From Dysidea avara (Eukaryota > Porifera > Demospongiae > Dictyoceratida > Dysideidae): 64,000 nucleotides of DNA. The stretch lies in NCBI RefSeq assembly GCF_963678975.1, contig NC_089274.1, positions 48,886,075 to 48,950,074 on the forward strand, in the 5' to 3' direction. Every line of letters begins with the position of its first letter. Positions within the stretch are counted from its first letter, which is position 1. The position numbers were made by a program, and so were the translations under genes. Of this stretch, positions 7,625 through 63,977 are shown in pieces. Under the pieces are notes generated by a model, which had not been told where the DNA came from, searched no databases, and saw only the letters and a program-made list of their open reading frames with translations.

Positions 7625-8797
7625 CTTTGCACAGAATTTATTTATTTATTTATTATTATTGATTAGCAAAACCCATTGGGTAAATCGCTAATGTACAAAA
7701 ACAAAATTTTAGTGTCTATGCATTTTGCAAAATTAATGGTTTTTGAAAGTAAGTAAGTCTATATTGTCAAGATCTTCCATATCTAAATTGTTCCAGTCTG
7801 GTATTGATCTTGGTAAGAAAGAGTTACTATATCGATTTGTTCTGGCATACAACTGTAATAGCTTCAAGGGATGGTTTGCCCTGGTACTTGTTGCAGGAGA
7901 TAACACTGGCAGATACTGATTTGGAACATAAATTAATTTGTTTACAAACTTAAACAACAGCATCAGACGTGCCTGTTTCCTACGATCTTCCAGTGTTGGC
8001 CATTTTAATTCCACTAACATTTCAGTTATACTGTCCCTATGATTCCTTCTCCAAGGTCTATTTAACACGAAACGTGCAGCACGATGTTGTATCATCTCTA
8101 ACTTGTGAATGAGTGATTGTTGATGTGGATCCCAGATAGAAGAGCAGTGTTCAATAGATGGCAAGACAATCTGTTTATATGCATGTTCTTTTAAGTGAGG
8201 TGGACAATGGTGGAGAGTTCTTCGCAAAAATCCCAGTAGACGATTAGCTTTATTGCACACTGAATTTATGTGAGGGGTCCATGACAACTTGTTATCTAAA
8301 AGTACTCCCAAATAGTGATGTCTCTCAACAACTTCTAAGGGGATTTTGTACATTGTATAGGAGAACTCACTAGCAGAATGTAGTGTAGATATCTGCATGA
8401 TGCAACATTTTGAAACATTAAATTCCATTTGCCAAATATCAGCCCATGATGATAATGTGTCAAGATCACTTTGGAGTATCTTATGATCTTCGGGTGAGTA
8501 GATAGGACGATAAACTAAACAATCATCTGCAAAAAGTCTCAACTGACTGTGGATGTTAGTTACAATATCATTTATATATATCAGAAACAACACTGGACCG
8601 AGCACTGATCCTTGTGGTACACCTGATGTTACACTGCAAGGTGAAGACTGCCTACCATCAATGATTACTTTTTGTGTACGATTTGTAAGAAACGATTGTA
8701 GCCACTGTAACAATTCACCTCTTATACCATAGAAATTCAGTTTGTGAGCTAGCCTAGCATGGGCAACTTTATCAAAAGCTTTTGCAAAATCAGAATT
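7625..8797 (-). pseudogene. CR1/L2-like LINE ORF2, 5'-truncated copy
   Basis: An open minus-strand frame of 326 codons (7733-8713) extends in frame to about 8795 (AKAFDKVAHARLAHKLNFYG). It contains RT motifs GVPQGSVLGPVLFLIYINDI and FADDCLVY, followed by the RT thumb region and the C-terminal WDPHQQ, HRAARFVLNRPWR and FLPRSIPDWNNL blocks. It is a close relative of the near-complete LINE at 46519-50472, including the 3' tail (TTTGCTAAT followed by TAA/TAAA repeats, 7625-7670 in inverse). The copy begins mid-RT, as expected for 5' truncation during target-primed reverse transcription. The remaining frame is intact, so the insertion is fairly young. Confidence 0.85.
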
Positions 8798-15307: not shown

Positions 15308-16109
15308 TTACAGCTTGAATTTGCTGTACTGGAAGTGTGGAGAGAAGATACTCTCCACAATGTAGTCAGTATACTTCCCTTCTATGATCCCTTCTGCTTG
15401 ATAGCCATACAATGGTTTAGCATGTAGACACATCTTTTCAGTACGCAGGAAATCCCAGGCTGCCTTCTCTTCAGTTTCTATCTGCCTTCCATTGAGCCTC
15501 AAAACTCCATTCTCAATCTCTGGTTCTCTACGAAGGAACTGACCTGTATAATACTCCATTGTATTATGGAATGGAATGGAGTATGGAACTTACCCATTAT
15601 TCCATGACAGCCATCACTGATACCATTATCATCCATCACAGCCAGGTCAAGATGTTCATTGACAAAATTGACCTTAAATGACAGTGTTGGCTTCTTCACT
15701 GACACAATCATATTAGGGTGTTCTCCCTTCTTCAATTTCTCTCCCAGTTGAATTGTGGCAGTTGTGTTATCCACCATAACATGAACTGGACGATCACTGA
15801 GTACTGTCCTACTACCATCAAGGAGGACACTTCTGTCACTGGCTGAGATGGTGATCTTGGTGATGTCCTCAGTTTTACATTTACCCTCACAATTGTTCGG
15901 TTGAATCATAATACCGATGTCTCCTAAGAAGGTGGCATACTCCTTAAAATCCTCCTTCTTCTCAGGAGGAATAAAATAGGCATTAATGTTGATGGTGGGG
16001 TCAGAAATTAGGTTGAATGCAAAGTAAGCTAATCCTTGCATACTGTAACACAGTAGCTGTCCATCTGATAATGGCACAGCAAAATGAGGATCTTGTCCAC
16101 AATATACTC
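15308..16109 (-). CDS. ITIH-C domain exons (exons 5 and 6)
   Basis: Exon 5 (16109-15594) starts after the acceptor CACTTACAG and ends at ATTATGG|GTAAGT. Exon 6 (15543-15308) starts after ATTATACAG and ends in TAA. The intron between them is 50 nt. The domain order matches the family: DPHF start, buried-core LLCY, the FLGDIGIMIQ strand, the GCHGIMGQF turn that aligns with THGLLGQF of heavy chains, and TDYIVESIF at the C-terminus. Length (about 250 residues) is near the family norm. Extra cysteines in NNCEGKCKTED may form a disulfide in the secreted form. Confidence 0.85.
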
Positions 16110-19100
16110 CTGTAAGTGAACATGCCAATAGTAATTTGATGTCTTCAGATGATATCAATGCTTACCTCCTGTACATCCAAAACATTGACCATTTACACTA
16201 AACGAAGTTCCTCCCAAAGTAGAACAACACCTTCTTTCACTAACACCCATTCCATTAGCCATAATTGTTCCCGTGCAGTCAGCAGTTGTGGAATGACAAT
16301 CTACATGCAATAATGTAGTTAGTATTACTGTTGGTGAATGTGCTGATGATATACCTCCAGGACATGATGAACAGGTGCCATCAGCATCACTAAAAGACAC
16401 TCCATTAAGACCACCACTGCAACAGTGATTCATGTCAGTAGGAGACGTGTTGCTAGTAGCTCCAGTACAGTCACATGCTCCAGTGTAACACATTGGATCT
16501 GTACAGTGATAGATAATCTAGTCAACAGATAATTCCTATGGGTAATTATGAAAAATCATATGCATGGGAGTAATATTGGGAAGGAATTTCTATTTGTATG
16601 CTGCACTATAATTGTGCAGAACCACAAGCAGAGTTTTTGTACACTGTAATACTTATGGTGTCTTATAGCTATGTAGTCAAAACTTCTTTTCAAGGAAAGG
16701 TCTGGTTAAATGTATGTAGGCTCAGCTGTCATGCAGCTGTGCAAAACATAACTCGCATGAAAATAAGCCACTGAAAGGCAAGCAGGCTATTTTAATAAAT
16801 GAAAGAAATGTGACTGACAACCATTCCCATTGTATTCATTCTTCATTCTGGAAGAATACAATCACACTACAAGTACATGACTTATCACTAGTGGCAGATC
16901 TAAAATTTTTAAATGGGGGTTACTGGAAATGTCACAACATAATGAATTTATGGAATAAAAAGAGGGGTTTTGGTGGGATCTGGGGGCATGCCCTCAGAAA
17001 TTTTAAAAGATTTTAAAAGTTCTAAGTAATAGTTTGATTTCAGACCACATGTATGTGTTGAATAAAGACCTGTACTGTAAATGTCCTTTCATTATAGCCA
17101 GTTTTGAGACCTGAATGGCCCATAATTTAGCCTAATTCATCCATACCCATTCCTCTTTCACTTTGTAAACACCAACTTACCCTCCCCTCCCACCACCCCT
17201 TTTGGAGCTTGCCCAAAACATTCAACATCGAGTTAAAAACTATCTAAAATCGTGGGAAACTTAGCTGTTGGCTACTTATTTTATTTATTTATTTTCATTG
17301 CTTTACAGATACACATGAGAATTACAAAGGTAGTGAGGTACAAAGAAGATAGGACAGTACAATTGAAAAGTGATCTGAAGGACAAATGGCAATCAATGCC
17401 AATAACCTATAAAAACTATTTATCTAACTACAGCTTAAATTAATTACAATAAATGATAGTTACAAGGGTAAGGGAGCTTAGAATAATCACAACAAGGGCT
17501 GGAAAATACAGTGAATTTAAAAAATGATACTTATGCTTTGGTAGGAAGGAATTCACAAGAAGTTTGCAGACATTTGCCATACTTGGTACACATAGCTTCA
17601 ACCATTAGTAAGCTACAACACACTAAATACTTAAAACCAGTATTTCTCGATAGTATAATAGGTGATAATACCGGTTTTCCCAGGTAACATATACGTAAGT
17701 TCAGGCTATGACGTCACTGGTTGGCAAATGCAGCGTGGGTCTCAAGTACTGGCTAGGGAAAAACAAATTTTCATACAAACAGATCACAAATATATTAAAG
17801 AAATAAGAAGGAACTAAGAACTAAGTCATTTTGAGACAAAACTTGCGTGCTCAAAGACTTGCCAACCATGCAGCTCAGCACCATTCTGTGCTCAGTACAT
17901 AGCCCGAACTTATGCATAGGGTTGTTTACTAAGGTAAACTGTCAGTACATCAATATTATAGCTTCTGGACTAGGTATACTGCTGGCTGTTGAGCTAAAAT
18001 TTAAAAGGGTATTTCTAACTGCATGAAGAAGCCCATCTATAGTTTCAAGTCTCTCATACTAGCCAACAAAGATTGAATAACACAGTACTCACTTTTCACT
18101 GTATGCATGCAGTCCAGGTACACAACAAAGTTAAAAAATTTATGCACTAATTCTGTTAAGCAATAAATAAATTATAACACTGAACAACAATGATAACATG
18201 TTCTGAACACAATACTGATACTGAGTGTAAACTGAGATCTGTATTTTACCAAATCCTTTATGTGAAGGAAAAAACAGTACCATACTTGTTAAGGTGACCT
18301 CAAGTTTTAACGATGCTGAATCTCTTATAGGTATTGTGAATTGCAAAATTTGTAGAAATAATGAAATTCACCTGGCTGTGACCATGCAGGCACGATTCTA
18401 AGGGGGATCACTAGTTTCTGGAAACCAGTCAGCTTTTTTTTAAATCAAACAACTCATTAAAACAGTGAGAAAATTTAGGTATAAAACGAGGTGTATCATG
18501 AAAAGACAGTAACTTCTAGTGATCAGACTGCATAAACTGCTTCCAAGCTTTGAACGTGTTAAGCTTTTGTGACTTCTGCAACCATAGATAACTATATCTA
18601 TGCTGCAACTCTTTGATAATGTATCAAACAGGGCCGGAGGAGGCAAAATTGAGTTGGTCAGGCCATTGTATATGTTGAAATTATTACCATATACATGGTG
18701 TTGCCAATGAGAGGAGTTGCTGTACAGTGTGTGAGGTAGGGCCCAAACGAACTTAGGTGAATTCGAAGGTTCGTTCAAACGAACGAACGAACATTCGAAT
18801 GTGGGTTGAACAGTTCGAACTATAGTTACTAATTTGACAGTGATACAGTTAAGCTATCCATTTTGCTTTGTTGCATAATGATGTGGGGGAGGCCAGACAT
18901 ATGGTATTAGACATTTAATTAAGTTATGTGTTGATGGTTTAGTGGTGGTCACAGGCCATGCCTCTATGAGGCTTTAAAGTTTCTATGTGGTGCCATCACT
19001 TGTCTCAACTGTATAGCAGTAGTAAAATGTACTTAAAACCTAGTAATCACAAACAATTTTTACTTGTGGTATTCAATTTCAAGTTTTCTCAGTAAAACTG

Positions 19101-22100: not shown

Positions 22101-25100
22101 GTAGTTTCTGGTGTTCCACAGGGCAGTATTCTTGGCCCCTTGCTGTTTTAGTTTACATCAATGACATGTCTTCATACATTCATGAAAGCCAACTACTCAA
22201 ATTTGCTGACAATGCCAAGTGCTTTATCCATGTTAGTACACTCTCTGATCATAAGGCTCTTCAAGACAACATCACTGCTCTTTTAACTTGGTCAAGGGTT
22301 GTTGATCTGGATTTTAGTTTAAAGAAATTTATTCATTTATCATTCAAACGTAAACTCGACACCTTATTCTATGTCCAATTCAATTATACCTCATGTCCAT
22401 TCTCATAAAGATCTTGGATTAATATTAACTGAAGACCTAAGTTGGGATAAACATTACAAAGACATCACTGCTCGTGCATACAAAATGCTTGGACTAATTC
22501 GCTGTACTATTGCCCCCACCCATTCACCTTCTACATTGGTCAGACTGTATGTATCATTGGTAAGATCACAGTTACTCTACTGTATGCAAGTTTGGCGTCC
22601 TCACCTAATGAAAGATATTTTAAACCTTGAAAGAATTCAATGTCGTGCCACTAAATACATCTTGAATGATTACACTAGTTGTTACAAAGACCGTTTGATA
22701 AATCTGAGGCTCCTTCCTTTAATGTACATATTTGAACAAGACATACTGTTTGCTATTAAATCAATCAAATCACCAACTAATCGGTTCAACATCAATAACT
22801 ACATCACTTTCAACTCTACCAATACTAGATCAGGCTCCAACAACAAACTCTTGTTACCTCAACATCTTAACAACATATCGCGACATTCTTATTTTCATCA
22901 TTTACCATCCCTGTGGAATGCCATACCAATTCTAGACCTAAACATGTCAGTTTGTTTGCTGAAATCTAAACTGAAATCATATCTGTAGGACCATTTCCTG
23001 ACTAACTTTAATGAGAACAACAACTGGACTCTACATTACTTGTGTCCATGCTCCAGAAGTCACCAAACTAAACCTCCAACTACCAATTTTAATCACTTAT
23101 AATCTTAACCATGTAACTATGTAATTACTTAAGTAGTTAGTATTAATTGTACGTATTTTATGGCTGTTGGTAGGCATTCCAGTATCCGAGATATTTAAAT
23201 AAAAAAATTCTCCGTATATTCCCCAATAGAACCCTGGCACAAAATAACAACTCGCATTTAACTTGGGATTGCCCCGTAGTGCGAGCTCCAATGAAGATAA
23301 AAATCACTATGGGGTTTGTCCACACGCTGATCATCATGAAAATCTTAGTTTTGTTGTGCGCGTTACATATAAGTAAGTTTGTGTTGTTTTGTAATCTTTT
23401 CATGCCTTGTAATGTATATAGAATACTTTAAAACTTTTAAAAATGTACTGTCGGGTGGAAGGTAGTCACTGGTGCTTACTTTAAAGTGCGTAGTTACTTC
23501 GCTCGGGTTAGCGATTTTCAGCTCCAGAGCAATTTTCTGATGGCTGTGTCATCAGCTCAAAAATACAAACCACTTCAAAGTCAGCATAACAATGCTGTAA
23601 TTGAAACCACAACTCCACCTTAGGTATTGTTGCATCATTGTGGCACCTCCACTTCAGTTGTTTACCTTTATAAGTTGTTAACTTGATGTTTTTACTTACT
23701 TGAGATAGTCACTTGCCTATGGGTATGCACTACTGTATTGAGAAGCGTGCAGCAGGTGAAACATATTTGCTCACCACAAAGCATACAAAAATCAATGAGA
23801 TCCGATAAGATCTGAAGTTACTCTCATTACATGTACAAACTTGCAGCTAGAAGCAACTGCAGTTGCAAGACAGTCCAGATTGCTAGATGGCTTCCTGCCA
23901 TTTTCCCCTTTAAAATGTATGGGGAGCCCTGGAGAAAAAATGTACCTTTTTCCAGTTTTTAAGCACTGTGCATGCCAAAGTAGCTAATTCCAACCCAACA
24001 AACTATATATTTCTGAGATCAGCAATCAATGCTCTATCTATTGAGCATATAAAAGTCCATTTTTCCAAAATTTAAAAATCGGCTGGAATGCCTACTGTTG
24101 GTTGCTACGTACCAACAGACCTTTGGTTTTTTTACACCATAAAGCCTAAATAAATACTCTTTACCCCATGCATGCGTAGAAGGGGACTGTTATCTGTTTA
24201 AGGTGGCGCTGAAGTAATTATGTGAAGCCGTACAATGCCCATTTGTCACAATTAAAATTAGCCCACGCGCTTAATTAGCTATTTTAGGATGGTGGAGAAC
24301 TCCGGTTGTGAACCATGTAGTCCAAGTTTAAAGGGTGCTTATGATAGCCTGTAATGTTGTAGCGTAGCATGCCAAGTTCCGTGAAATCACCCGCTTTAAT
24401 TTCGTGGCTATTAAACTCTGAACTTACGAGCCGATTTTAAAAATAACTCACCCCAGAAACAACCTAGCGCTAAGCCGCCTTGGCTCTTATGGTTTCTCAC
24501 CTTGTAGAACAACTCTATGGAATCCTTTTTAACGATAACAACGTGGAAACTGGTTAAAATGCAAACCCGCATTTTTCAACAAGTGATATCACGCCCGTCA
24601 ACAGCGAATCGCGAAAAATCTTTCCATAGCCCTGTAAAGAAACGCTTCACCAGTGCCTCTGCCACATTTTGAGGGTCTATGGTACATAAATATGGAGTTA
24701 TTTCACGAATTGTAAGACAGTGTAACTGGCCAGGGCACGCTCCGTAAAGCAGTAATCACGCGATGACAGCTGGTGTTGTTCACCGTGAAGTTACCAGAGT
24801 TTTGACAAGGTGATGAAGTTAGTACGTGAATATCGTTACTTGTATCAGCAATAGTAGCCTGACAGTCTAATAGAGTTGGTCCTTTCAATATTTCGAAGCG
24901 CTTTGCTTTGTTCTACTAGTTTTCCGTGTTTTTTCGCGCATGGCCACAAACATGATGTCCCATTAGCCTTGTAAGGCTTCATTTGATTACTTCAGCGCCA
25001 CCTTAAGGACATTACTCAAAAGTGCTCGCAAAAGTGGCATACCTGCGGCGGGGCATGGCATACATGATCCAGATCCATCGTCGTGAGACATTCCACCTGA

Positions 25101-25311
25101 GGCACAACAATCACTCATTGACATTCCAGTGCTGCTTGCTGTACCGCTGCAATCTGAGGTCGACTGGAAACACTGTTGTTGTTGAGCACTAGTCGTTTCT
25201 ACAAACAATTTTCGGTAATGGCACTCTGGAGTCGTGCACAACTACAGACTCCTGACCTTTGAGTGCTGCAAGCACTAACCAACTGATCAAAACAATCATA
25301 AACCGTTCCAT
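15308..25311 (-). CDS. Secreted six-Cys-module protein with ITIH C-terminal domain
   Basis: Six exons join without a frame error: 25311-25257, 25198-25043, 16498-16355, 16300-16166, 16109-15594 and 15543-15308. Their lengths sum to 1242 nt, that is 413 residues plus TAA. Every junction is GT-AG and in phase 1. Residues 1-18 (MERFMIVLISWLVLAALK) form a signal peptide. Three cysteine modules follow at residues 19-70, 71-118 and 119-163. Residues 164-413 resemble the C-terminal domain of inter-alpha-trypsin-inhibitor heavy chains (QDPHFAVPL, LLCY, HGIMGQFL, DYIVESIF). The usual VIT and VWA domains of that family are absent. In vertebrates heavy chains are cut at the Asp-Pro of DPHFII and the new Asp end is esterified to chondroitin sulfate; here Asp170-Pro171 is kept. 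I infer an extracellular protein, perhaps linked to matrix polysaccharide. Further module exons hidden in the long intron cannot be excluded. Confidence 0.85.
16166..16498 (-). CDS. Six-Cys module exons 3 and 4 (modules M2, M3)
   Basis: Exons 16498-16355 (48 codons) and 16300-16166 (45 codons) are separated by a 54-nt intron and followed by a 56-nt intron. Both begin and end in phase 1. Each encodes one module with the pattern C-x6-C-x(14-15)-CC-x(13-15)-C-x2-C, usually with a GVSF or GTSF motif after the double cysteine and a CPG or CTG at the exon end. M2 carries one additional cysteine in the first loop. Symmetrical exons allow module gain or loss without frame damage. Confidence 0.85.
18629..20511. 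mobile_element. Nested element with GGCCGGAGGAG ends
   Basis: CAGGGCCGGAGGAG at the left and CTCCTCCGGCCTTG at the right pair as an imperfect repeat of about 34 bp that also includes GGTCAGGCC. TCAAA flanks both sides (18624-18628, 20512-20516). No coding sequence is recognised. It sits inside the element at 18387-20691. Confidence 0.45.
18737..19276. mobile_element. hAT-type MITE, GTTCG-rich
   Basis: Ends TAGGGCCCAAACGAACTT are inverted at 19276. Flanks GTGTGAGG (18729-18736) and GTGTGAAG (19277-19284) form an 8-bp duplication with one mismatch, as expected for hAT. The left subterminal region carries the short array CGAACGAACGAACATTCGAA. Non-coding, 540 bp; innermost of three nested elements. 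Confidence 0.7.
20897..23160 (+). pseudogene. CR1/L2-like LINE, 5'-truncated and broken
   Basis: A frame at 20897-21556 gives the linker between endonuclease and RT (RTLRRRYKCHPTNHISSVIN, then FKYLRSITKSRN). The RT palm (DVNKSAGIDNISP near 21560-21600, GVPQGSILGPL near 22115, then LLKFADN in place of FADD) is scattered over several frames. The RT thumb and C-terminus are open at 22371-22988 (DLGLILTEDLSWDKHYKD, SLVRSQLLYCMQVW, ATKYILNDY). An in-frame stop and shifts lie between 21560 and 22170 and near 22400. It lies in the long intron of the ITIH-like gene, in the opposite orientation. The same family supplies the fragments at 5815-7164 and 13370-14150. Confidence 0.8.
23161..24111. mobile_element. 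Possible element with GGTAGGCATTCCAG ends
   Basis: TGTTGGTAGGCATTCCAG at the left is inverted at the right as CTGGAATGCCTACTGTTGG. No target duplication or coding potential was found, so this rests on a single imperfect pair of about 22 bp. Confidence 0.3.
24202..25002. mobile_element. TTAA-flanked element (piggyBac/Kolobok type)
   Basis: GGTGGCGCTGAAGTAAT starts the element and its inverse ends it, with similarity over about 40 bp (TGAAGCC, then TACAA). TTAA stands at both outer edges (24198-24201 and 25003-25006), the target signature of piggyBac and Kolobok. 801 bp, with a minus-strand frame at 24703-24888 that shows no known domain. It is inserted only about 35 bp downstream of the exon 2 donor of the ITIH-like gene. 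Confidence 0.75.
25043..25311 (-). CDS. Signal-peptide exon 1 and module exon 2
   Basis: Exon 1 (25311-25257) holds ATG and 18 codons of a hydrophobic signal sequence, then the donor AAAG|GTCAGG. Reading straight on hits a stop, so splicing is required. A 58-nt intron ends in TTGTTTGTAG. Exon 2 (25198-25043) encodes module M1 with C-x6-C-x13-CC-x13-C-x2-C and ends GCCGCAG|GTATGC. The split codon gives Glu19, keeping phase 1 as at all other joints of this gene. Confidence 0.75.
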
Positions 25312-40359: not shown

Positions 40360-42091
40360 ACAAGTTGTTTCTGAAGTTGTTGCTTTACATACAATAGAGT
40401 GGAAACCATGTGCTAAAAGAGCAAGGAACTTTGTCTCCCTTGATGGGAAACCTGCTTTTACCAAAGCCAACGGGAAACCATCAGTTAAATTTGCTGACTC
40501 AATGGAACACTCACTCAAAGGATATGCTGACGATGTCACTTTGATCTCCTGTGATATCGATGTTCATAAATCAGTTTTACAAACAATTGACCTGAAGGCA
40601 GCAGATTTGGACTTGACTTTTAAACTATCTAAATGTATTTCCTTTCTATTTGATGGCTCCAAAGTTGCGCCAATGGGCTTGCCATTATCCAAATGTACAA
40701 CTAGACCCATCACAGAAGGCCAAACCAAATTTTTAGGAAAGTTAATTGATGTCTCTTTGAGTGCTACCAAGAAAGCTGCAGGCAAGCGTATGATAAGCCA
40801 TCTTACTGACCTACTTTCTGCATCTGACTCACTCCCCATCCGTGGTGAGTACAAACTGTGGATTTACCGGAACTATATTCTCTCACTGACACGGTTTCAT
40901 TTGTGTGTTGATGCTGTCTCCAGGGGGACCATCTCCAAGTTAGAATCTATTGCCACACGGTTTCTGAAGAAATGGCTGAATTTGCCCCGGAGTGCTACAC
41001 GAGTTATTCTGTACTACCCAGGTGTTTGTTGTCCTAGTATTTCTCATGTCTCCAGGGAGGCAAAACTAAGTTTGCTAACCTGTGTCAGTGCCTCCTCTGA
41101 CTTGCGGCTCCAGGAACTTAACCTCCATTTGCGTCTTGGGAATGTTGCTCTACAAATCCAAGACAATGACTATTCCATCCTGTCGATTGCTCAAAAACAA
41201 TTATCTGCCTTCCCATCAGCTCGGTCGTTATATATTAAGGCTAAGCACCAGTTGTCAGATTCCATCAAAGCTCAATGCAAAGACCATTTACAGTCACTAA
41301 CTGTTCAGTCAAAGTTTGAGAGTTCCGCTGAACTAGAGAGCTCCTGTAAAACTTGGAACAGGCTACTGAAGGGATTCCACCCCGGTCAATTGTCATTCCT
41401 CCTTCGTGCAGCATCTGACACTCTACCCACCGCTGTGAATTTACAGAGATGGTCCATCCTATGTGAAGCGAAGTGTTTGCTTTGCGATTCACGGCGCCCA
41501 ACAACTGCTCATGTTTTAAGTAGCTGCCCTGCAGAATTAAATCAACAGCGGTATACCTACCGTCATGATCAGGTTCTTCGTGTTTTGGCCACTAAACTTT
41601 CTGAAGCATTTGCTGACATCCCATTTGTTAAAGTGTTTGCTGATATACCTAATTTCCATGCTGATAATTCTCCACAGTCTACAATTCCGATGAGTCTCCT
41701 TATTACATCCTACCGTCCAGACATTGTAATATATAATTCCCAGAGTTCTTCCATCACTCTGTTGGAACTAACATGCCCTCTGGACTCCATCCATCACATC
41801 CAGTCTGCTCGCAATAGGAAGCAGAGCAAAACTGAGTATCTGCAGCTGTTGGCTGAATTTGATCGCCTAAATATTGCTAACTATTATGACACCATTGAAA
41901 TCACGGTACTTGGTCATTTTCAAGTGTCTTCCATCAAGAATTTATCTAGTTTGTTAAACTTTGTTCAAGCTGATATAAGGATTTCGAAGCACATTATTAA
42001 GGAATGGTTAGATGCTGCTGCCTCTGCCAGTATCTCTGCCTCTCAGAGAATTTTTCTAGCACGAAACTGTACAGAGTGGTGCACAAATTAG
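40360..42091 (+). CDS. R2-like LINE ORF: RT end, Zn knuckle, nuclease
   Basis: Open from just after a stop near 40357 to TAG at 42091; the first ATG is 40502 (529 codons), but the frame continues upstream, so this is a 5'-truncated ORF. GYADDVTLIS (residues 7-16 from that ATG) is the RT catalytic YxDD. A CCHC knuckle follows (C325-x2-C328-x8-H337-x4-C342). Then a restriction-like endonuclease block appears (RPDIVI 405-410, ELTCP 422-426, K440, K443). This order is typical of R2/NeSL/Hero-type LINEs, which prime reverse transcription at a nick made by that nuclease. The finger and most of the palm of the RT are missing, so it cannot be autonomous, yet over 1.7 kb there is no stop or frameshift, implying a young insertion. 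The 3' non-coding part runs to about 42257. Confidence 0.8.
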
Positions 42092-44403: not shown

Positions 44404-44544
44404 CTGTGTGCTATGCTGATGATGGTAGGTGTCCTACTGGAATTACCACTAAGCTATCAAGTGCTAATATTAGTGAATGTTGTGGGAATACCCTCAGTGG
44501 AATATTCTATTTGTCACCAGATGGTGTTTGTATGTCATGTCCAG
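44404..44544 (+). CDS. Six-Cys module exon (gene B)
   Basis: 47 codons between an acceptor (TTACATGTGGACAG) and a donor (CCAG|GTGAGT), phase 1 at both ends. The module VCYADDGRCPTG, then ISECCGNTLSGIFY and DGVCMSCPG has C-x6-C-x15-CC-x15-C-x2-C, as in the ITIH-like gene on the other strand. The role is presumably extracellular by analogy; partner exons in this neighbourhood were not found before 63782, so the assignment to one gene with that exon is tentative. Confidence 0.65.
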
Positions 44545-44774
44545 GTGAGTTCATAACTGAATGTATATCATGTCATCTATGTACAAAGCACTCTGACCCT
44601 GTTCCATGGTGTGTAAGTATGATCTAAATCTTATTAGCATTTAATTAGTTGATTTGTTCATTTTCAGTTACACATTTTCTTGTCCTTTTATATAGTCCTG
44701 CAAAGTGGGTAGAACATTTTTCCTTTTCATGTGGATCAGTTATATAGCTGAAAATCTGCATGATCTTAATATTA

Positions 44775-47604: not shown

Positions 47605-50402
47605 TTGAAACTGTCTATTGTAAATTTCTGTAGTGTTACTAACAAACGAACCCAACTTGAAGTTTTTCTGGTTACCTATGCAATTGACATCATTATAGAG
47701 ACAGAATCACATTTGAATGAATCTATTCTAAACTCTGAGGTTTTCCCAAATAATTATCAAACATACAGAAAGACAGAAACACTTCTGGTGGTGGTGTGTT
47801 TATTTCCATAAAGAGCTCTATACCATGTACACAAATTAATGACAATTCAACTATTGAAATAGTGTGGGCTCACGTTCATCTTGACAAGAACAATGACTTT
47901 ATCGTTGGCTCCTTTTACTGTCCTCCTCACTCAAGTGATACAATACTTGACAACTTGCAGTCTTCCATAGACACGATTAAGCAAAAGTATCCCCACACTC
48001 AAATCATTCTTGGAGGTGACTTTAATTGTCCAGGTATTGACTGGGAAAACAGTACACTAATAAATTCCTATGTATCATGTCACTTTCGTGAAAAACTTAT
48101 TGACTTATCACACAACTACCAACTGTCTCAGTTAGTCACCTTCCCTATAAGAGCTCAAAATGTTTTAGACTTATGCTTTACTACTAATCCTAATTCTGTG
48201 ATATCATGTGAACCACTTCCAGGCTTGAGTGACCACGACGCTGTTTTAGTATCCATCAAGATTCCTAAACGTGTAATCAAACAACATCCCAGAACTGTTT
48301 ACCTTTACAAGCTAGCTGACTGGGAAAAAATAAGAGAGGAATTATCAGACTTGTCACATGATTACTTTGAAATAAATCAAGCATCACCCCAAAGCTTAGA
48401 TGAAAATTAGTCCTTCTTCTTACAAAATTTACAAGAAATAATAAACACTCATACTCCTACCAAGAAATTAAGTACAAGAATTCACCTTCCCTGGCTGTCT
48501 TCTGCTTTAATACGACTCATACGTAAAAAGCAAAGAGTTTATAGAAGAGCAAAGCGTTATTGTCGAGATAGTGACTGGAATGAATATAAATCATTACAAA
48601 AAGAGATAGATCATAAACTAAAGTACCAACACAAATCCTACCTGACAAACCTAACTTCATCACCAGACAGTAACAAAAAGTCTTTATGGCACTACATCAA
48701 GTCACGAAAACAAGAAAACAATGGTATTAGTACATTAATAAATCCTATAAATGGTCATATCATAACCAATCCTGTGGAAAAAGCAGACACCCTCAATCAA
48801 CACTTTCAGTCTGTCTTTACATCCGAAGATAATAGTAACATTCCTGACAAAGGTCCATCCATCTTTACCTACATTTGAGATTACCGAACAAGGAGTCTAC
48901 AACTTGTTAAGTACCTGTGACACATCCAAATTCCCAGGACCTGACTCCTTGCATCCGTATGTACTGAAGGCCACAGCTGCCGAATTATCTCCCATTCTAA
49001 CTCATATTTTCAAACAATCACTAGAATCTGGTGAAGTCCCATTACAATGGAAGCATGCCTATGTCACCCCAATATTTAAAAAAGGTTCCAAAGCTCACCC
49101 AGGCAACTACCGTCCTATCTCACTCACCTCAGTAGTTTGTAAAACAATGGAGAATATCATCGTGAGTCAAATTATGAAGCATTTGGAGGACCACAATATT
49201 CTTTCAGACAACCAGTTTGGATTTAGATCAAAACATTCCTGTGAGACTCAACTACTCATTACTGTTAATGACATTGCAAAAGATATTGACAGGAACCTGC
49301 AAGTTGATGCTGCTATATTAGACTTTTCTAAAGCGTTCGACAGAGTAGCTCATTCTAGACTTCTCTACAAATTAAATTACTATGGTATAAGAGGAACTGT
49401 CTTACAGTGGCTAGAGTCCTTCCTTCATGGTCGTACCCAACAGGTTGTAGTAGAAGGCTCTAGATCTTCTACATGTCAAGTTACATCTGGTGTTCCACAA
49501 GGTTCCGTACTTGGTCCTGTGTTGTTCCTAATTTACATTAACGATATTGTAACAAACATCAAGAGTGAAATTAGATTATTTGCTGACGACATTCTACTCT
49601 TTAAAACTATAGCTACGCCCAACGATCACAGAATACTGCAAATGACTTAGATTCCTTAACACAATGGGGTAGCAACTGGCTGATGGAATTTAACATTCCC
49701 AAATGCAATATTTTACAATTTACAACCCACCACAGCAAAAGCACTTTTACATATAAAATGTCTAATATTCCATTGAATATTGTATCAGAGCACACCTATC
49801 TTGGTATCCGCCTCCATCATACACTATCATGGGAACCTCATGTTAACTATATTTGTGGAAAGGCAAACCGTCTTCTTGGATTTCTGAAAAGGAATTTATA
49901 TAATGCCCCAATACAAATCAAAGAACACTTATACAAACAATTATTGTTACCTTCTATTGAATACTGCTCAGCCATCTGGGATCCTTATCACCAAACAACA
50001 GTTAGCAAATTAGAAATGATCCAACACCGAGCTGCAAGATTTGTTCTTAATAAACCATGGCACAGATCCAGTCAACAACACAGTATTACAGATATGCTTA
50101 ATTACCTTCAATGGCCAAGTTTAAAAAGTAGGAGAAGGAATGCTAGACTTATATTATTATTCAAGATTGTAAGAAACTTACTGGTGCTACCAAACCATTG
50201 TTTACCCCAGCCAACCCCTGTATCATATACTCGTGCCAATAATCCCCTCAAATTTGCACAGCTGCAATCCAGAATTGATTTATATAAGTATTCTTTTTTG
50301 CCAAGAACAATTATTGATTGGAATAACTTGAAAATTGACAACATTGACACAATTAACCTTGACACTTTTAAGAACATTATAGATAAGCTAAACAATTTGT
50401 GA
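47605..50402 (+). pseudogene. LINE ORF2, endonuclease and RT, broken
   Basis: Apurinic-type endonuclease: NFCSVTNK near 47625, GGDFNCPGIDW near 48015 and LSDHDAV near 48225. RT: GPDSLHPYVLK, VTPIFKKGSK, YRPISLTS, QFGFRSKHSCETQL, FSKAFDRVAH, GVPQGSVLGPVLFLIYINDI and LFADDILLF. The C-terminal blocks are WDPYHQ, HRAARFVLNKPW and SFLPRTIIDWNNL. Interruptions: a frame change near 47795, a stop at 48408-48410, a frame change with a stop near 48878, and a frame change near 49645. Otherwise catalytic residues are retained, so the copy is young but inactive. Confidence 0.85.
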
Positions 50403-58832: not shown

Positions 58833-61800
58833 TCCTCCCCTGGTTGACCATAGTCAAGTGTGGTTATCTAATAGATCAGCGGACCACTGCTTAAACTGCT
58901 CCCATACCTTCAAGGCGGCCATTCTCAAATTCCTCTCTTCAGTAACACTCTGATTAGGTAAGGCCGACTTACCTCAGTCATGCAGCTCAGTGGGGGTATC
59001 GCCTGTGATTGAAGGATGTTTGTTATCTCCATGAGTAGATAAGTTCTGTCATCAACTGCTTGATTGTCCTTATCAGAACTGCAGTTGATTTCTAACGGGT
59101 ATAACAATTGCAGTGGTCGTTGCAAAGTGGTTTCCTGCTCTCCTCTGGCTGCTACTCTAAGTACTGCTCCTCTGTGCTGTCCATCCTTGCCAGTTAACAA
59201 TCTTGTCACTCTGGCAACCTTCCAAAAGCCTCTTGGTAGGTCTGGGTCTTGGACACAATTATGTCGCCCTTCCTGGACTGCTGAGAACTGCTGTCTCTTA
59301 CTTGGGTAGCGGCGAGCATTACATAATTCCTGAAGGTATTCCTTTTCCCAGCGATTCCAAAAGTGGTTCACTGTGTTATTAAGATGCTTTGCTCTCTTTA
59401 TGAGGGTATCATCCGTGATGGTGAATTCTTCATCGTCCTTGTCTACCATTTAATACAAGTCATCAGGAAGACTCAACAGCCTGTGCCCCACGAGGAGGTG
59501 CGGAGGAGTTAGTGGCCCCTCTAAGTCATCAAAACTTACATAGGTAAGCGGACGGGAGTTAACAATTGCCTCAACTTCCACTAAAGCTGTGTTGAGCTCA
59601 TCGTAAGAAAACTTGGCTTGCCCAACAATCTTCCGTAGACATCTCTTCACCAACTTGACTAAACATTCAAATAGTCCTCCCCACCATGGAGCTTTCTCTA
59701 AGTTGAAGGTCCACTCTATGCCCACTTCTGCAAGATATCTCTTAAATTCAGGTTGGTTCACTATGTCCTTAAGGGTTACTTGGAATGCCTTACCATTGTC
59801 TGACACAAACTTCCTGGGTAGTCCTCGTCTGGCAGTAAAATTCTTCAAACACCTGAGAAAAGTTTGTGCAGGCATGTCCAATACAAGTTCTAGATGTACA
59901 GCACTAGTAACACAGCAGGTGAACAAACATATCCACACCTTACAGCTGTTATCATCTCCTTGGGCACGTACAAACAGTGGTCCTGCGTAGTCGACTCCAT
60001 TGTAGGTAAACGGTGGTGCTTCATTTACCCTGAAGGCTGGAAATGGTGGTGGTGGTGGTGGTGCATGGCCATCATAACAGCGACACATGACACATTTGTG
60101 GATAATGGACCTCACTAGGCTCCTACCACCAACAATCCAGTACTGTGAACGTAATTGAATCAATGTGGCTTTGCTACCACACTGTGCTGCACAGTGTGAT
60201 GGGCATCCTTCACAATCAGCTCTGTATAATGGTGTTTTCGTGCAAGCATTAATGGATGTTTGGCAGCAAACGATAAATTAGAATTCTGCAGTCTGCCCTG
60301 ACTTCTCCAGAGGATATTCTTGTCTAAGTAAAGGTTAAATTGTGTCCTCCACATTGGAAAGTTCTTGTCCTTCACTAGTGCTGTCTGGCAATCTGAGACC
60401 CACAGCTTCCTAGCCTTAGCCAAATCATTCTGTGTGAGCTGACGTGATTGATTCATATCCTTCAACAAGGATACAAACTTCAATACATAAGCTGTAACTC
60501 GATATAGCTTGTGGACAGTACTGTACCTATGGCAATCTACAATATTACTCACTTGAATGGTGTTGTCTGTTGGTGTCATCAAGCAGAATATGTCACTTGA
60601 CTTGAGCTCCTTAGCACATGCCTCAGGTATCTCAGAAGGAAGGGAAGTTGTGCTCGGGTCATCATGTAGCCAACTGGGGCCATGTTTCCACAATACACTA
60701 GCAGATGACTCTTATGATGATAATCCACATGATGGTATGTCTGCAGGGTTGCTCTTCCCTGAACAATGATCCTAACACTCTGCTGGTACCAGCCTTCTAA
60801 TCTCAGTAACACGATTTTGTACAAGAGGTTTCCAATCCTTTTCTGTTCCTGTTATCCAGTAGAGACCTATCTGTGAGTCCGTAAAACATCTGGGTAACTG
60901 CAGGGTCAGTTGTTCCTTGAGGCTGTCCATAACTGTCTTCATTAATCTGGCCAGCAACGGTGCAGAGAGTAACTCAAGCCTGGGAATAGTTTGAGTCTTT
61001 AAGGGGGTAACACGAGTCTTTGATACGACAAAACTGGAGCGCTTACCAGTTGAACCGATTTCTACAACGTATATCACTGCTGCATAAGTGATGGTGGATG
61101 CATTGCAAAATCCAAATAGCTGGTATTGTACAGCATCGTCTCGTGTTGAGAAATAGTACCGATCAATGGCCACAGGCTTACTCTTCTCTAAATCTGTAGT
61201 GAGTTCTTTCCACATCTTTAACACATTGCCTTCAAGTGGTTCATCCCAATTTACTTGGGTCTTACAAAGTTCTTGTATAAGCACCTTAAACCTTATCGTG
61301 ATAGGCGACAGAAAGCCTAGTGAATTGTAGAAGTGGCCGATCAAACTAATTTCTTTTCTCTTCGTGGGCACCAAAGGGAGTGCACTTTTTGCAATGGTGG
61401 ACAGGTCAAATATTAACTGGTCAGACTGACTATTCCAGCAGACACCTAATACTTTATGCTCTTCAGGCAAAGTAGGTTGGTCAGGGGACAGTGTGTCATC
61501 TACATATGTTGCATCAGATACATGACTATACCTGTTCTGCTCAGGACTGACTTCCCTCAACATTGTCTCCCTCAACACATGGGAACTAGTGACAAATTTA
61601 CGCAGATTAAAGGATGCATGACTTAAGGCTTCTTTGGCAAACAAGTAATGTTCATATGCTTCTTCTTCACTGTTGCCACCACAGACCAAGTCATCAACAT
61701 AAAATGATTGCAATAGTTTTGTCACCAGTTCAGGGTGCGAGGGCGAATATTTGTTGAAATGGTGCTGTATGGTGGAGTTGAGCAGACACAGGCTAGAGGA

Positions 61801-62860
61801 CACACCAAAAACTACTCTTGTAAATTTGTAAACAACAATGTGTGGGCTTGTACTGAAGGGGTTGTCAACCCATAGAAATCACAGTACACCCTGGTCCTCT
61901 GGTGACACAGATATCATAAGGAAAGCTTTCTCTATGTCTGCGATCCACGCTACTCTGTATGATCAGAAGCGAAGCAAGATTCCAGTACCTTCTGATTGAA
62001 TTTGGGTCCAGTGTGTAGACAATCATTCAGTGAAGGACCCTTTGCATGAGCAGAGGCATTGTACACAATCCTTACTTTGCTAGTGTCCTTGTCCTGCCGC
62101 ACTACTGCATGGTGTGGCAAGTAGTGTGTTTTGTTAAAGCTGCTGTCTGTCCGATCAACCATCTCAATAATTCCCACATTAAATTGTTCTTGAATTATTT
62201 TACTGTACTCATCAAGTATTGTTGGGTCACGTCGTAGTTTCTGTAACAGGCCATTAAGTCTACGTAAACTCAGGCCATAATTGTCTGGTAATGGCTGGTG
62301 GAACTCCTTTCAAGGTAAGGAAACTTCATAACATCCTTCCTTTAGCTCAACAGCATGGATCAGATGATCATAGGTTTTGTCTTTTAGAGGTTCCATCCCA
62401 AACTACTCTAGCTCCCAAAATGATCGCAAGGTCCTGTCTAACTGATCATCACATGATCCGATTTGCAACATGTGCACAGTCATTGCAGCTGTTACAGTAT
62501 CATCAGTTTCATCAGTAATTACTGGACCGGATAGCACCCATCCCAACTTAGTGTTGATAGCAACAGGACCTGTTTGTCTTCTTATGACCTCTCCTGTAGT
62601 CAGTTGCCAATAAAAATCTGAGCCTATTAACATGTCAACGTTAAGTGGGGTATTACTCAAGTGAGTGTCTGCAAAGTTGAGAGAGGACAAGTGGGGAAAC
62701 ATCTTGAGCAAGTGTTGATGGGTTGAGCAGACAATGGTTCACAGATATGAGGGATAATGAGTAGCTCCAGTATCTCATCTTGACTGGACCTTGTCACAAC
62801 GCCAACGCGTACAACTTCATAGCATCTGGGAAACAGTTATAACTACAGTTCCTTAAATGG
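58662..62860 (-). mobile_element. BEL/Pao LTR retrotransposon fossil
   Basis: Minus-strand order of parts: protease-like (DUF1758) region about 62403-62711, RT remnant about 61950-62300 and RT with a YVDD block near 61690. Then Pao-type peptidase A17/RNase H region 60772-61650, integrase zinc-binding and core 59450-60700, and C-terminal domain 58925-59449. A candidate 3' LTR of 171 bp (58662-58832, TGTAAGGAAC to GTATGACA on the minus strand) follows a purine tract. No gag or convincing 5' LTR is seen. Broken, with roughly five to seven interruptions. Large parts are still well conserved, so it is of moderate age. Confidence 0.85.
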
Positions 62861-63781: not shown

Positions 63782-63913
63782 GAATGTGCTACACAACTGC
63801 AAGTGGCTGTTCAGTGTTCACACTGAATGTAACGACTGCATCATTTCAGGACTGCTGTGATAATAATGATGGAATGTCATTTCAATCTGGACAAGTATGT
63901 CATAACTGCCCAG
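63782..63913 (+). CDS. Six-Cys module exon (gene B or C)
   Basis: 44 codons between acceptor CTTATTGCTTTAG and donor CCCAG|GTAAAC, phase 1 at both ends. MCYTTASGCSV, then FQDCCDNNDGMSF and QVCHNCPG gives C-x6-C-x14-CC-x13-C-x2-C. A 64-nt intron follows. Same architecture as the modules of the minus-strand ITIH-like gene. Confidence 0.75.
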
Positions 63914-63977
63914 GTAAACTCATCTTCTAGTTTTTTGTATTACATTGTTGATAAAAGTTGTAAATGCTCATTTCCAG

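Follow-up and report, generated by a model that had tools for sequence, protein, structure and literature searches.

The question raised by this locus is whether a DPHF motif encoded outside a heavy-chain gene marks an ITIH-type processing site and, if so, what would become of the two halves of the protein that carries it. In the window, i.e. the whole 64,000-nucleotide stretch of the Dysidea avara genome analysed here, an earlier note had described a 413-aa protein with Asp170 in a QDPHF motif, and both the length and the residue number were reproduced when the gene was rebuilt from the sequence. The gene lies on the minus strand (25311-15308) and consists of six exons (lengths 55, 156, 144, 135, 516, and 236) with GT-AG introns, which join into an open frame of 413 codons; all five introns are of phase 1. 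The 8.5-kb intron between exons 2 and 3 was predicted from module similarity and from the tandem copy. The features of the gene are as follows.

25257..25311 (-), exon 1: start Met and a signal-peptide-like hydrophobic stretch, MERFMIVLISWLVLAALK; the tandem copy L063 has the same N terminus.
25043..25198 (-), exon 2: Cys module 1 (Cys 28, 35, 49, 50, 64, and 67).
16355..16498 (-), exon 3: Cys module 2 (Cys 74, 79, 81, 96, 97, 113, and 116), seven being an odd number.
16166..16300 (-), exon 4: Cys module 3 (Cys 120, 127, 143, 144, 158, and 161).
15594..16109 (-), exon 5: QDPHF and the bulk of the ITI_HC_C-type domain, with a phase-1 intron upstream.
16099..16101 (-), Cys167: possible tether, three residues before Asp170; the column is Cys in 4 of 83 aligned domains.
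16081..16092 (-), DPHF motif with the predicted Asp170-Pro171 scissile bond: DPHF in frame in 83 of the 90 genomic matches read.
15607..15609 (-), Cys331 in GCHGIMG: possible disulfide partner, the pairing being putative; the column is Cys in 9 of 83 aligned domains.
15308..15543 (-), exon 6: domain end, with YTDYIV..IF common to ITIH1, and the stop codon.

The N-terminal stretch indicates that the product is probably secreted. It contains 25 Cys in all, of which the three modules hold six, seven, and six, respectively, and the Asp170 codon lies 17 bases into exon 5. The Cys modules have no Pfam match up to E 10. A search of Rfam gave no match. Two additional modules of the same type are present in the window, at 44409-44546 (+) and 63787-63915 (+), the latter perhaps being part of a tandem gene with a DPHF exon at C3:48964486, past the window end. 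The window also contains retroelement remains at 7733-8713 (-), 40502-42091 (+), 47796-49650 (+), and 59450-61803 (-), the matches being to reverse transcriptase, endonuclease, Pao-type peptidase, and, below the cut-off, integrase.

The ITI_HC_C-like domain proposed in the earlier note was borne out by profile search: ITI_HC_C (PF06668) is the sole Pfam match of the 413-aa product, covering residues 203-345 and scoring 40.2 bits, above the cut-off of 27 (E 3.5e-10). As that note had also claimed, neither VIT nor VWA follows the three Cys modules, no Pfam match to either being found in the protein up to E 10; no match to VWD was listed up to E 10, and no VIT place was found on the window's contig among the genome VIT matches listed. 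Asp170 precedes the Pfam start by 33 residues, and the identical offset is seen in human ITIH1 (Asp at 7, profile start at 40), so that the position of DPHF ahead of the aligned domain, which had been named as grounds for rejection, does not tell against the motif standing at the domain start. The human letters used here are supported by their 234.9 bits and, up to the Asp, by PDB 6fpy_A. BLASTP of the window domain against this human stretch gave 22% identity (E 2e-10), pairing DPHF with DPHF and extending to the C-terminal end. The window domain retains Asp, Pro, and His as well as a Gln-Gly (SMQG), and the residue before Asp is Gln, not Gly. Judged from the sequence, the DPHF that opens this ITI_HC_C domain is real and of ITIH type.

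The distribution of the domain is wider than the earlier note had seen. In total, 116 genomic matches to the window domain were found at E<=0.001 (a broken gene can give two), and 90 of these were read, 30 from a first search and 60 later. DPHF is present in frame at the expected point in 83 of the 90. Of the remaining seven, L104 carries EPHF and, alone among the 83 aligned domains, has lost a Cys that the other 82 retain. A stop closely follows the motif in L018 (HPHF) and in L028 (DPHF). L026 and L033 are apparently parts of a single broken gene that was matched twice, and the N terminus is not visible in the matched frame in L038 and L119. The codons for DPHF drift, with 18 different 12-base spellings among 85 sites, one of which was probably counted twice owing to the overlap of L026 and L033. 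A chance tetrapeptide is ruled out by the count of 83 in 90 together with the varying codons. In an alignment of 25 copies, 13 columns are invariant, including D, P, H, and F; these copies were picked for having DPHF, and the conservation argument rests on the count of 83 in 90 instead. The domains diverge to 25% identity with that of the window, and only 11 of the 25 aligned members reach Pfam ITI_HC_C at E<=1, so that the family link of the remaining members runs via window-type copies.

Among the 83 copies, as read in genomic frames, the residue before Asp is Gly in 53 and one of seven other residues in 30, and Gln-Gly, mostly at Asp+18, is retained in 79 of the 83 domains. A tree was computed for 82 domains (L104 excluded), using the sequence from the Asp onward. 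On it, a single change accounts for whether Gly or another residue precedes Asp (support 89/81; 91% of bootstrap trees), and the window protein belongs to a set of 29 rows without Gly (100/100). L071, which also lacks Gly, sits next to the Gly clade, in a region for which the program flags long branches.

The N-terminal parts that precede the domain differ: Cys modules in the window gene and L126, VIT-VWA in L062, VWA and a long Asp/Lys repeat in L124, NIDO-VWD-C8-TIL in L127, and a part without Pfam match in L125, the assignment of each to a single gene with the DPHF domain being deduced from strand and order. Cys modules also lie beside 7 of the 30 loci that were read with 1,500-base flanks (L009-L012, L019, L025, and L027). 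The ITI_HC_C domain thus occurs apart from VWA, as had been claimed for the window protein, and gives the impression of a mobile unit placed at the C terminus of different proteins. In L124 (C8:26360000-26365999, minus strand), a tract of Asp/Lys repeats (DDKDDKKDK), several hundred residues long, lies between VWA and GDPHF. In L127 (C5:13573500-13579999), NIDO, two VWD-C8 units with GDPHY, TIL, and then a GDPHF domain lie on one strand, so that two kinds of candidate self-cleavage domain apparently occur in one protein. A scan of prokaryote genomes gave one hit, L128 (3001-3213), a piece of a TDPHF domain that ends at an N run; its scaffold is otherwise bacterial-looking and binned as a gammaproteobacterium (CAR3_bin_15), and the piece is probably animal DNA in a metagenome bin. 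Among the open-licence papers listed, judging by titles and abstract starts, we found no description of the DPHF/ITI_HC_C family.

The VIT-VWA gene, L062 (C7:14889000-14896499), is heavy-chain-like. It contains a weak VIT place (31.4 bits vs a cut-off of 26.5), a VWA domain (Pfam E 1.3e-18) whose frame matches human ITIH4 (E 2.8e-48) and ITIH1 (E 4.5e-42), and, downstream of VWA, SDPHF and ITI_HC_C (31.7 bits); its domain match at C7:14894550, with SDPHF, lies outside the 90 matches read. An 88-aa SDPHF piece of L062, from a frame without Pfam match, matched 91 genomic places, itself included. The window gene is among them (37%, E 6.5e-5), and the match begins at the motif, which places DPHF and SDPHF in register. 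Three further copies of the SDPHF exon, with 98-100% identity to L062, are present on the same contig (C7:14.89-14.95 Mb), and VIT places, each with an internal stop, are listed near two of these three. The earlier note had suggested that the attachment chemistry is older than the heavy-chain architecture; since the domain is also carried by a VIT-VWA gene of the same genome, no order of origin follows.

The reading of DPH as an ITIH signature of sugar attachment also has to be given up, as the same triplet belongs to the self-cleavage motif of VWD domains, where the GDPH Asp-Pro bond is cut with hydrolysis (PMC10880436). That report describes GDPH self-cleavage in several VWD proteins. In FCGBP, mutation of Asp or His blocked the cut and mutation of Gln at Asp+14 had a partial effect, the Gly-Asp bond of the cleaved protein is cis, and the cut halves are tethered, the cut being proposed to stabilise the fold; GDPH in a predicted VWD-like domain of ITIH3, 5, and 6 is already noted there (PMC10880436). 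In the D. avara genome, DPH at the VWD start and a Cys five residues before the Asp were found in 12 of 12 VWD loci read, which are the best 12 of at least 150; 18 more copies were collected with a pattern demanding that Cys and GDPHY and are not independent evidence. Comparison of the DPHF-family and VWD profiles was not significant (P 0.027). The loosest local alignment by hhalign, likewise non-significant, runs from DPHF/GDPHY through HGIMG/CGLCGN and pairs the Gln-Gly of the DPHF family with the FQG of VWD. Foldseek with a poor single-sequence model (pLDDT 50.2) gave nothing at E<=0.001, RGMB-containing entries ranking 33, 41, and 44 with E above 1. Among solved structures, the 25-copy DPHF profile gave nothing better than E 0.63, and phmmer was also fruitless. 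The reading as a plain VWD domain was dropped, given the lack of a Pfam VWD match and the non-significant profile comparison.

We favour, with moderate confidence, the explanation that the C-terminal DPHF/ITI_HC_C-type domain is an ITIH-type self-processing cap, which would release, and possibly transfer, the N-terminal cargo. Self-cleavage at Asp170-Pro171 is likely in view of the in-frame DPHF in 83 of 90 matches and of the varied settings of the module. After folding, the side chain of Asp170 would attack its own carbonyl and break the bond to Pro171, as deduced from what is known of FCGBP and of the heavy chains. The cap, which extends from Pro171 to the C terminus, would then come away from the three-module cargo, although in the window copy a disulfide may keep both joined, and the activated Asp would be captured by water as the default or by a sugar hydroxyl, which is the heavy-chain outcome; the same domain is also present on other kinds of protein in the D. 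avara genome. Against this explanation stand the replacement by Gln, in the window protein, of the Gly that forms the cis bond in FCGBP, the non-significant comparison with the VWD profile, the poor structure model with its lack of Foldseek hits at E<=0.001, the lack of a solved structure better than E 0.63, and the small share of members (11 of 25) that reach the Pfam profile. The missing Gly as a bar to cleavage was nevertheless dropped: recombinant mature human HC1, a heavy chain of the esterified kind, ends ...VDTD (PDB 6fpy_A residues 634-660), i.e. with Thr before Asp, so that the loss of Gly in the window protein fits the heavy chains. The construct is described as the whole mature protein (PMC7170535).

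Two special cases of the self-processing cap concern the fate of the halves. In one, which we hold only tentatively, Asp170-Pro171 would be hydrolysed and a disulfide would hold the halves together, the cut serving only to stabilise the fold; FCGBP provides the precedent (PMC10880436). The tether may be Cys167-Cys331 or may involve the odd Cys of module 2. Of the 83 domains, 4 have Cys at both positions; they are the copies with YCGQDPHF and comprise every domain with Cys in the Cys167 column. Against such a pairing, five further domains have the Cys331 equivalent without Cys in those four residues, one shows the reverse, and the 25 Cys of the product leave the pairing unforced. The claim that the mature product would be the Cys modules only is weakened accordingly, as a disulfide of Cys167 may keep the cut halves joined in the window copy. 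In the other special case, which we consider unlikely, a sugar hydroxyl would capture the Asp170 intermediate, leaving the Cys modules ester-linked to a matrix polysaccharide. The closest known domain is the C-terminal domain of heavy chains, whose cut Asp is ester-linked to chondroitin sulfate before TSG-6 moves the heavy chain to hyaluronan (PMC4661386). The non-Gly residue before Asp, as in HC1, is in line with such a transfer, as are the 15 genomic places matched by chondroitin-synthase-type sequences and the 78 of 83 copies without Cys in the four residues before Asp (a genomic reading, splice sites not worked out), from which the cargo could leave. The presence of Cys167 in the window copy speaks against it. 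Also on the side against it, the vertebrate chondroitin chain bearing heavy chains sits on bikunin (Kunitz domains were found at 44 genomic places in D. avara), and the vertebrate transfer enzyme contains a Link domain, for which no genome match was obtained in a search that is uninformative on absence, its positive control also being silent. A sugar ester on Asp170 of the window protein is rated as possible, although nothing specific to this gene points to it.

That DPHF is a structural turn and never cut seems doubtful to us. A folded turn can hold a motif, and recombinant MUC2 GDPH was uncut in one host, but self-cleavage of GDPH VWDs is reported in several proteins (PMC10880436), and Asp, Pro, and His are retained in 83 of 90 matches despite identity down to 25%. 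A far-reaching extension, which we regard as improbable, would make the DPHF/ITI_HC_C domain a C-terminal tag of general use, whatever the cargo. It would cut itself off and leave the cargo ester-bonded, via the new terminal Asp, to matrix polysaccharide. The cargoes would be Cys modules, VWD-C8-TIL mucin-like chains, VWA proteins, and heavy chains; such a tag would be an animal counterpart of sortase-type anchoring, with vertebrate heavy chains as one surviving use.

The processing domain of heavy chains is thus seen in proteins of other kinds, and in many copies within a single animal genome, which also contains VWD domains with a related GDPH site. The origin of heavy-chain sugar attachment from simple self-cleavage could thereby be tested in one species, by distinguishing DPHF cargoes with a free Asp from those with an ester.

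Compared with known systems, the window protein shares with human ITIH1 DPHF in register, a Cys after about 10 residues, HG[IL][ML]GQF, and G.YTDYIV..IF, and with human HC1 a non-Gly residue before Asp (Gln and Thr, respectively). Unlike vertebrate heavy chains, it has no VIT and no VWA, and its cargo consists of three Cys modules. The heavy-chain-like genes of D. avara resemble the window gene in having ITI_HC_C with (S)DPHF in register, whereas L062 has VIT (weak) and VWA, both of which the window gene lacks. In the self-cleaving VWD domains of FCGBP, MUC2, MUC5AC, and RGMB, the D-P-H of GDPH sits between the first two strands, and D-P-H is also present in the window domain; the latter, however, has no Pfam VWD match, and Gln in place of Gly sets it apart from GDPH. 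Some VWD members, though not all, have a Cys that links beta strand 1 to the rest of the domain; Cys167 and Cys331 are present in the window protein, their pairing being putative.
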